Assembly: GCF_944801835.1 (NCBI RefSeq)
Contig: NZ_CALYLN010000001.1
Location: 124,001 to 188,000 of the forward strand
DNA: 64,000 bases
Source of the DNA: Bartonella sp. B1099
Lineage (GTDB): Bacteria > Pseudomonadota > Alphaproteobacteria > Rhizobiales > Rhizobiaceae
Direction: 5' to 3'
In this document: positions 20,026 through 31,582 of the stretch, in pieces
Layout of the letters: each line of letters begins with the position of its first letter
Position numbering within the stretch: the first letter of the stretch is position 1
The notes under the pieces: generated by a model
Database searches by the model: none
Told to the model about the DNA's origin: nothing
What the model saw: only the letters and a program-made list of their open reading frames with translations
Program-made: the position numbers and the translations under genes

Positions 20026-20871
20026 TCACAAACCATAACGCTGCCAAAGTGCCCGCTCTTCTGCGGCCATCAAAGCACTGTCAACGACCGTATAAACTGC
20101 ATGAGCAGTCACTCCTGAGGGCGTTTTAAGTCCTAAAAAACTTTTTGGAGGCGTAATAAGTCGAATTTTTGCATCATTACCAAAGCGTTCCTTAATAACA
20201 GAACGCACATCATTCAACCCGTCAACCAGACCAAGTTCCACGCCTTTTTTTCCACTCCAAAACATTCCTGTAAAAATATCTGGATCACTTGATAACTTCG
20301 CTGCACGCCGTTCTTTCACCAAATCAATAAAAGTTTGATGAACTTCAAGTTGGAGAGATTTCAAATGCTCAATATCAGCTTTTTTTTCTGGCTGAAATGG
20401 ATCTAATGTAACTTTGTTTTTTCCTGCTGTGTAAACGCGACGTTCCACACCAATTTTCTTCAAAAGTTCCGGAAAACCAAAGGAAGCTGAAACCACCCCA
20501 ATGGAACCAACAATCGAAGAAGGATCTGCAAAAATTTCATCTCCCGCACAAGCAATCATATAACCACCAGATGCTGCGATATCTTCAATAAACACAAGAA
20601 CTTTTTTATTGTTTTCTTCTGCTAAATCGCGGATACGCTTGAAAATAAAACGTGATTGCACTGGAGAGCCACCAGGAGAATTAATAACAATTGCAACAGC
20701 TGGTGCTTTTTTGTACGCAAAAGCTTTTTCTAAAAGATTGGCACATCTACTGAGAGAAAGCGTACGAGATATAGACGATGAATCCATAATTGCCCCTTTA
20801 AGGCGAACAACAGGAACTTCAAATTTATTGGAAGAAAAACGGCGTGGAATAAGATTTTTTAAAATATCCAT
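20026..20871 (-). CDS. sppA: Peptidase S49 family protein (SppA-like signal peptide peptidase)
   Basis: The protein has 281 residues, the short SppA form. Core motifs are INSPGGSP (about 64-70), the nucleophile segment EDIAASGGYMIACAGDEI with Ser about 101, and a Lys at about 151-153 (YTAGKNKVTLDPF) that fits the Ser-Lys dyad. It lacks an obvious N-terminal membrane anchor: the first 20 residues are basic and polar. Family members cut remnant signal peptides or membrane proteins. AAGGAG lies 11 bases ahead of the ATG at 20871. A 34-residue membrane protein gene is immediately upstream (gap 20 bases) and could supply a membrane partner, which is inference only. Confidence 0.9.
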   Translation of the reverse strand: MDILKNLIPRRFSSNKFEVPVVRLKGAIMDSSSISRTLSLSRCANLLEKAFAYKKAPAVAIVINSPGGSPVQSRFIFKRIRDLAEENNKKVLVFIEDIAASGGYMIACAGDEIFADPSSIVGSIGVVSASFGFPELLKKIGVERRVYTAGKNKVTLDPFQPEKKADIEHLKSLQLEVHQTFIDLVKERRAAKLSSDPDIFTGMFWSGKKGVELGLVDGLNDVRSVIKERFGNDAKIRLITPPKSFLGLKTPSGVTAHAVYTVVDSALMAAEERALWQRYGL

Positions 20872-20891
20872 CAAAACAAAATCTCCTTAAT

Positions 20892-20996
20892 TTAAGAACA
20901 ATTAAATAGGCAAGGACACAAAAAAGGAAGAACGTAATACCATCCAAAAGCGCCAATCAATCCCCACATGACAACTAGAAATATAATTTCACCCAA
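20892..20996 (-). CDS. Small membrane protein (34 residues) upstream of sppA
   Basis: This short gene starts with TTG at 20996, with AAGGAG nine bases upstream (21006-21011), and ends in TAA 20 bases before the sppA start. The translation is one hydrophobic helix with a Gly/Trp/Tyr-rich centre (VVMWGLIGAFGWYYVLPF) and a Cys-Pro-Cys tail (CPCLFNCS). The strong ribosome binding site, tight spacing to sppA and a clear single transmembrane segment support a real gene. I do not recognise a family. The TTG start has parallels in this window (dxs, ispB). It may be a conserved alphaproteobacterial microprotein translated with sppA. Confidence 0.6.
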   Translation of the reverse strand: MGEIIFLVVMWGLIGAFGWYYVLPFLCPCLFNCS

Positions 20997-21061
20997 AGGT
21001 TAAGTCTCCTTAATAATAAAGTTTAGACTTTAAATAATAAACTGAAAAACACAAGAGACCA

Positions 21062-21850
21062 TTACAAAAGTTCCCACAAACTTATACATCCATTATTGAT
21101 TGCATCAACCCGTGATGAAAAAGCATGCCCTTCATCTTCATGTATAACCAACGCTGGTAAAATCGATAAAGCTGCTCTGCTCCCTCGTTTTGCATAAAAT
21201 AAAAGACGAATTGCCGGAGTTGATGCACGCGCATGAATGGGAATGATACAGATACCACCAAAGCGACCTTCTAAAGCATGCAAGATATCCGTTAGTGATT
21301 GTGGACGCGCAATGAGCCCTAAATATCCACCTGGCTTAACGATAGCTGCTGCACTGCGTAGCCAGTTATCAAACATCGCTTCAGGCATAACATGTGCTTC
21401 AGATTTTTGTTTATCAGGTGTCTTGCGATCCATAGGATTATTAAAAGGCGGATTCATAATGGCAAAATCAAAGCTATTATCTATCAAACCTGCTTTTATA
21501 CGAGCACTCCCTGTGAGGGTCACATCTGCTTTTAACAAACAAACTCGCTCAGAAAATTTTTCATTTTGCTTTAGCGTAAGTGTTTTTTGTGCATAAGATG
21601 CCATAAAAGATGAGCGCTCAACTAATGTAATATGAACTTGCGGACAACGCGAAGCAACAGCCAACCCTGCTGCTCCAGCCCCCGCCCCTAAATCAACAAC
21701 CTTGCCCTTTAAATCAGTGGGAACCAAACTGGCTAATAACATAGCATCCATTCCAGAACGATGACCATGTTTATGGGGTTGAACCAAATAAAATTTCCCG
21801 CGATGAAAACTGTCTATTGTTTCATCACTCTGATTCGTTGTTTTATCCAT
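21062..21850 (-). CDS. tRNA1(Val) adenine N6-methyltransferase-like protein
   Basis: This 262-residue class I SAM methyltransferase has VVDLGAGAGAAGLAVASRCP (about 51-70) and the N6-adenine signature NPPFNNP (133-139). The N-terminal FHRGKFYLVQPHKHGHRSGMDAMLLA is typical of TrmN6/YfiC. YfiC methylates A37 of tRNA-Val in E. coli; activity on that tRNA here is inferred from family only. It precedes the small membrane protein and sppA on the same strand (65-base gap) and is divergent from ispB. Confidence 0.85.
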   Translation of the reverse strand: MDKTTNQSDETIDSFHRGKFYLVQPHKHGHRSGMDAMLLASLVPTDLKGKVVDLGAGAGAAGLAVASRCPQVHITLVERSSFMASYAQKTLTLKQNEKFSERVCLLKADVTLTGSARIKAGLIDNSFDFAIMNPPFNNPMDRKTPDKQKSEAHVMPEAMFDNWLRSAAAIVKPGGYLGLIARPQSLTDILHALEGRFGGICIIPIHARASTPAIRLLFYAKRGSRAALSILPALVIHEDEGHAFSSRVDAINNGCISLWELL

Positions 21851-31167: not shown

Positions 31168-31582
31168 TGGCCCCTTTATTTTGTTTATCTTGGCGCAATA
31201 CGCCTTTTTGCCCTAATTGACCGGAGGAAACATACCCCACAGACCGAAGAATACTCAATACACCAGCAGCAAATCCAAGAAAGAGAAAAAACACCAATCC
31301 CCACGGCCATGAACCTGCTAACTTGTCAAACCCCACCCCCAAAACAACACCCACAATAACACTTGCCAGAAACTCACTGGAAAGCTTAATAGCATCCGCC
31401 ATCCTTCCTTGTGATTTTTCCCGCCTATCCTTATGCTCACGCTTCCTTAATGCTTGCTTGCGCACTAAAGCTACGCTTAAGGCCTTACTACGATATTCCA
31501 AATCCTCTGAATGAAAACACTCTCTTTGCTTTTTCTCTTCAACCTTCTTGCGGCTTATAACGGGTTTTTCGCCCATCGCCAT
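31148..31582 (-). CDS. atpI: ATP synthase-associated protein AtpI
   Basis: This protein of about 144 residues has a very basic N-terminal half ([19 protein letters not shown]) and two C-terminal membrane helices ([19 protein letters not shown] and [19 protein letters not shown]), as in AtpI, a helper of c-ring assembly and Mg uptake. The start is uncertain: AAGGAG precedes ATG codons at 31582 and 31576, while an earlier ATG at 31597 has no ribosome binding site. The last 20 bases overlap atpB. Confidence 0.82.

Follow-up and report, generated by a model that had tools for sequence, protein, structure and literature searches.

A T-rich, lineage-specific small ORF upstream of sppA in Bartonella, predicted to encode a dispensable single-helix membrane peptide

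Introduction

Does the short reading frame that immediately precedes the SppA-like protease gene of Bartonella sp. B1099 encode a membrane peptide and, if so, does this peptide serve the protease? The initial annotation of the window (i.e. the whole 64,000-nt stretch of DNA that was analysed) had described the frame as an unannotated small membrane protein and had proposed it as a partner for an SppA that lacks a clear membrane anchor. The analysis presented here favours, with a probability of about 0.55, a young, T-rich, lineage-specific small ORF that would give rise to a dispensable one-helix membrane peptide and is probably translated together with sppA. No article title or abstract opening in the open-licence PMC literature was found to deal with this small ORF.

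The small ORF and its neighbours

The small ORF is located on the minus strand between a methyltransferase gene and sppA, and the relevant features are as follows:

21850..21062, minus strand, upstream small-domain methyltransferase (Pfam PF05175, E 7.5e-14), which we take to be trmN6-like
21061..20875, minus strand, methyltransferase-sppA spacer containing the small ORF (defined by gap lengths and by aligning 10 spacers of the branch with 10 from other Bartonella)
21011..21006, minus strand, small-ORF ribosome-binding motif AAGGAG, located 9 nt ahead of the TTG start
20996..20892, minus strand, small ORF with a TTG start, 34 codons and one hydrophobic helix (homologues and helix model)
20888..20882, minus strand, AAGGAGA ribosome-binding motif of sppA, between the small-ORF stop and the sppA start
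20874..20026, minus strand, sppA, encoding an SppA-like S49 peptidase (Pfam PF01343, E 6.6e-32), with a likely TTG start at 20874 and an ATG at 20871

The small ORF was thus found as initially described, starting at a TTG codon (20996-20994), ending at a TAA codon (20894-20892) and separated by 20 nt from the ATG of sppA, or by 17 nt if sppA begins at TTG 20874. The latter codon is probably the sppA start rather than the ATG, as almost every aligned Bartonella spacer retains it, in contrast to the variable codon that follows (ATG, ATT, ATA, GTT, TTG and others).

The deduced peptide, (M)GEIIFLVVMWGLIGAFGWYYVLPFLCPCLFNCS, exhibits a top 19-residue Kyte-Doolittle window of 1.97 and was modelled by AlphaFold2 as a single helix spanning residues 2-31, with a mean pLDDT of 79 and of only 55-64 across the last 14 residues. 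A hydrophobic helical stretch of ~19 residues, evident from this model and from hydropathy values of 1.5-2.3 in all 32 intact homologues, is present, and the product is probably a single-pass membrane peptide. The Cys-Pro-Cys tail that had been noted previously is not a conserved motif, as CPC is present in 9 of the 32 intact homologues. No Pfam or NCBIfam family matched the peptide. The 93-base small-ORF frames have a T content of 49%, and T-rich DNA tends to yield hydrophobic peptides.

Across the 64-kb window, 13 listed matches (repeats counted) were obtained for a ribosome-binding motif followed by a start codon and a frame of 25-60 aa, and four distinct motif-led short ORFs reached a hydropathy of at least 1.6. 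With four similar ORFs in 64 kb, the single-genome pattern is unremarkable, and it is conservation among relatives that sets this small ORF apart. The other hydrophobic short ORFs with a ribosome-binding motif are located at 31395 (minus strand, 25 aa), 37514 (minus strand, 25 aa) and 28589 (plus strand, 56 aa).

The SppA-like protein of the window is 98% identical to that of B. elizabethae F9251 (among the best 80 of 417 relatives) and aligns to the SppA chains 3rst and 4kwb, which we take to be B. subtilis-type SppA structures, with its SGGY stretch in register with both. Its Peptidase_S49 domain contains the catalytic Ser-Lys positions of the SppA type (the lysine register being judged by eye), and the peptidase is presumably active. 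The protein indeed lacks a clear membrane anchor, the top hydropathy window in its first 60 residues being 0.59. The sppA gene was detected in all 61 sampled genus genomes and, at E 1e-60, in 119 of 121 family genomes. Distant S49-type paralogues (~24-27% identical) were observed at G000:C1:1062943-1063458 and at six places in G035, being multicopy in some genomes; these are perhaps prophage proteases, which is a guess.

Distribution of the small ORF among relatives

The small ORF was encountered in a single Bartonella branch, presumably 'lineage 4', whose members include elizabethae, tribocorum, grahamii, vinsonii, doshiae, koehlerae and taylorii, among others. The spacer of this branch is ~90 nt longer than that of other Bartonella, and the additional ~90 nt corresponds to the small ORF and its ribosome-binding motif. 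The methyltransferase-to-sppA gap measures 158-217 nt across 40 distinct branch spacers, compared with 43-125 nt at the 47 loci from Bartonella outside the branch (with some genomes represented twice). Outside Bartonella, where the methyltransferase lies beside sppA at 55 of 61 loci, the median gap is 91 nt, and the few long gaps, of up to 280 nt, are devoid of the ORF.

At 108 further sppA loci, of which 61 come from outside Bartonella and 47 from other members of the genus (some being copies of a single genome), the gap yielded no homologue of the small ORF; the sole match with E <1 among these (locus L149, E 0.0077) sits within the methyltransferase gene. When a profile of 32 peptides was applied to 71 genus genomes, the same 32 genomes and one more, G182, were recovered at E <1e-10. 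The small ORF is absent from 30 of the 71 genomes, 27 by spacer length and three (G181, G183 and G184) by profile search only. Away from sppA, a single genus match had E <0.01 (G186 C93, E 4.6e-4); it overlaps, on the same strand but in a different frame, an ORF of 179 aa, and was put down to chance rather than taken as a second copy. Among 397 genomes of the order, an E-value of 0.005 was passed by the window's own genome alone, the best value in the other 396 being 0.0078; the 12 further genomes at E 0.008-0.1 represent no more than the chance passes that per-genome E-values produce. Candidatus Tokpelaia, with similar gaps of 191 and 188 nt, contained no such ORF among its frames and no profile match. 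From this distribution we infer that the insert was gained in the branch rather than lost elsewhere.

As to where the insert came from, an origin by tandem duplication, either of the 5' end of sppA or of the 3' end of the methyltransferase gene, was rejected, as local alignments of the insert with its flanks (at most 1.2 kb per side, nine species) scored at shuffle level. Similarly, tblastn against 72,556 plasmid and 50,697 phage records gave no match indicative of a mobile origin.

Intact and broken copies within the branch

Conservation among Rhizobiales had been suggested as the check on the original proposal. This was borne out within the branch, where the frame is intact in 32 of 41 genomes, and not beyond it, no homologue being found elsewhere in the Rhizobiales searched. 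Stops or frameshifts in close relatives, named at the same time as contrary evidence, do occur: nine of the 41 copies are frameshifted, stopped or start-deleted, and in all nine genomes sppA is full length (282 codons with a normal end). These counts derive from 40 aligned distinct branch spacers, in which the frame was read at the aligned start, with G182 as the 41st genome. The 32 intact copies comprise 31 recognized by sequence pattern and one, L062, with a tail ending in SFFNFS that lies outside the pattern.

Broken copies among the 40 were those of L012, L018 (washoeensis), L020 (vinsonii berkhoffii), L028 (koehlerae), L029 (raoultii), L032, L099 (fuyuanensis) and L117 (a tribocorum-labelled strain). 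In G182, the ribosome-binding motif and start are deleted, as in koehlerae; what remains is a frame of 30 residues that opens with an in-frame ATG and has no evident motif. The L032 spacer (genome G035), in which the small ORF is frameshifted, contains an additional ribosome-binding-like stretch directly upstream of the small-ORF motif. A reverse arrangement was observed in a B. queenslandensis strain (L062; G054 C7:20770-21614), in which the small ORF is intact and sppA is broken into two pieces by a TGA, the first stop falling after 98 codons.

Intact copies start with TTG (29 copies) or ATG (three), and all 32 possess a purine-rich GGA/GAG/GGG motif at the ribosome-binding position, with an exact AGGAG in 14. 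Residues M1, P24 and F31 are invariant among them, while E3, W11, F17 and L30 are present in at least 90%.

Frame retention and selection

As judged by comparison with simulated and neighbouring sequence, the frame, start and ribosome-binding site of the small ORF are conserved beyond chance among branch relatives. When neutral drift was simulated along the sppA tree at matched divergence, 13 of 40 frames stayed intact on average, and none of 1500 runs retained 32 or more; with a slower rate the average rose to 17.6, and 28 of 1500 runs retained at least 32. The simulation ignores indels, the inclusion of which would lower neutral retention further, as well as recombination, which could inflate frame retention. 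The other frames of the 32 intact copies are rarely stop-free (two copies in each of the two forward frames, and two, six and two copies in the three reverse frames). Among the 40 copies, 11 gap patterns were observed in the small-ORF frame vs 21 in the 5' spacer; among the 32 intact copies the numbers were three vs 16, frameshifts being excluded here by the choice of intact copies. Two of these three gap patterns within the frame stem, by eye, from insertions in broken copies.

At the amino acid level, selection on the small ORF, as estimated from 32 sequences chosen because they are intact, is weak. The intact frames differ pairwise by a mean of 0.31, and the M0 model yielded an omega of 0.68-0.71 in frame 0 (2dlnL 4.4-5.6), compared with 0.86, 1.12 and 0.87 in frames +1, +2 and reverse, where the departure from 1 is not significant. 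The omega of sppA is 0.12 (codon alignment of 280 codons, 31 loci; L062 excluded, its sppA being broken). Changes at codon positions 1, 2 and 3 of the small ORF numbered 137, 111 and 136 on the sppA tree and 91, 69 and 89 on the ORF tree, without a significant third-position excess (p 0.28 and 0.27, respectively). Of the single-base codon differences, a fraction of 0.375 was synonymous, compared with 0.248 when columns were shuffled 400 times (p 0.012), and a BLOSUM-based shuffle test gave p 0.06. A two-class site model exceeded omega=1 by 45 (2dlnL), a value equalled by seven of 60 column shuffles. In 13 close relatives, divergence was 0.131 in the small ORF vs 0.101 in the 5' spacer, with first positions changing most. 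Taken together, the frame is probably maintained, with its sequence held loosely.

Allele classes and recombination

Two allele classes of the small ORF were distinguished, with tails like CYRVLPFCCPCLFNCS and like SYALPFLLPCLFP, and their distribution is discordant with the sppA tree. The small ORFs of the window (first class) and of B. elizabethae (second class) are only 63.4% identical, whereas the corresponding values are 96.3% for the initial 300 sppA bases and 92.0% for 697 aligned methyltransferase bases. The methyltransferase and sppA trees are likewise discordant, which suggests that recombination is common at this locus. At L093 and L003, the closest relative differs depending on whether the methyltransferase, the small ORF or sppA is considered, an indication of recombination breakpoints in the vicinity of the spacer at these two loci.

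Proposed origin and alternative explanations

According to the favoured reading, a short T-rich insert would have entered the methyltransferase-sppA interval in the ancestor of one Bartonella branch, carrying a small ORF with its own ribosome-binding site. This ORF would be translated from the same mRNA as sppA, and its product would be a peptide of 32-37 residues, inserted as a single helix in the inner membrane. Selection would retain the frame, the start, hydrophobicity and a few residues (E3, W11, F17, P24, L30 and F31), not most of the sequence. The peptide would be accessory, having been lost in several species that keep sppA, and an effect on SppA, such as holding it near the membrane, is possible. 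In a more specific version, put forward tentatively and with the odds against it, the peptide would be one observed shortly after its birth: in the branch ancestor the T-rich insert would have become a translated, transmembrane-first ORF, which then split into two strongly divergent allele classes that move between species by recombination, and which is being lost in some of these species.

The main rival explanation, itself unlikely, is a cis-acting leader: ribosomes that finish just before sppA would feed or gate its translation, by coupling or by a nascent-chain stall as in MifM or VemP, and the peptide would need no role in trans. Such a leader is consistent with the short distance that separates the small ORF from sppA (12-30 nt to the start codon across the 32 intact copies), with frame retention above the simulated level and with weak sequence constraint in which several of the best-conserved residues (P24, L30 and F31) lie near the C-terminus, a pattern that arrest peptides display. 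However, known arrest-controlled genes use RNA structure around the ribosome-binding site, and the consensus structure around that of sppA contained no pairs in the 25 of 32 intact loci analysed. Nor did a single-sequence fold exceed shuffles (z-score +0.91), and no Rfam match was obtained at the locus. A RAPP-like motif (RAPP/RAGP) was found in none of the 32 intact peptides, and sppA has its own ribosome-binding site and occurs without the small ORF in relatives. As for transcription signals, six promoter-like sites were predicted around the locus (shuffle mean 3.8, sd 2.3), and no terminator-like sites.

Ranking next, and rather improbable, is a non-functional ORF, i.e. a chance ribosome-binding motif and an open frame drifting in a T-rich spacer insert. 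The near-even substitutions across codon positions, the nine broken copies, a divergence close to that of the 5' spacer and the presence of four similar ORFs in the window are what such drift would produce; against it, frame and start are kept more often than simulated, gap patterns are fewer in the frame than in the 5' spacer, and omega falls below 1 in the small-ORF frame only.

The proposal of the initial annotation, in which the peptide is a dedicated membrane partner or anchor of SppA, draws on the adjoining, co-directional genes and the missing hydrophobic N-terminus; it is improbable and was not upheld as a general rule, since an anchor is absent from SppA at all 14 inspected loci (five Bartonella, nine others), 13 of which are without the small ORF, and since full-length sppA accompanies the broken copies, so that a conserved Rhizobiales partner is unsupported.

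If translated, the small ORF would constitute a small bacterial membrane gene that is present in some well-sampled sister species, absent from others and broken in still others, so that ideas on how small membrane peptides emerge and disappear could be tested. The biology of SppA would be little affected, the protease gene being kept without the small ORF elsewhere.

Comparison with known systems

The arrest peptides MifM, VemP, SecM and ApdP (PMC10987492; see also PMC6037786 and PMC11470409) are encoded by small ORFs that contain a hydrophobic segment, directly precede a gene of membrane-protein biology and have conserved C-terminal residues, and the Bartonella ORF shares these traits. It differs from them in lacking both a RAPP-like motif, the arrest motif given in PMC10987492, and a conserved structure over the next ribosome-binding site, and its downstream target is a peptidase rather than sec or yidC.

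In yeast, de novo emergence of transmembrane ORFs from thymine-rich intergenic DNA has been reported (PMC7005711). The small ORF resembles these in its T-richness, transmembrane-type peptide, weak constraint and dispensability. Unlike them, it is bacterial, has its own ribosome-binding site and lies beside sppA, and the source of its insert was not found.

A preprint catalogue of intergenic small ORF families in Enterobacteriaceae reports purifying selection (PMC11188072). Like those families, the Bartonella ORF is short, intergenic, hydrophobic and syntenic; unlike them, it belongs to a different order and is under weak selection, and its presence, absence and breakage are placed inside one genus. 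It can be placed among the lineage-restricted, hydrophobic small ORFs of intergenic regions, which form a broad class.
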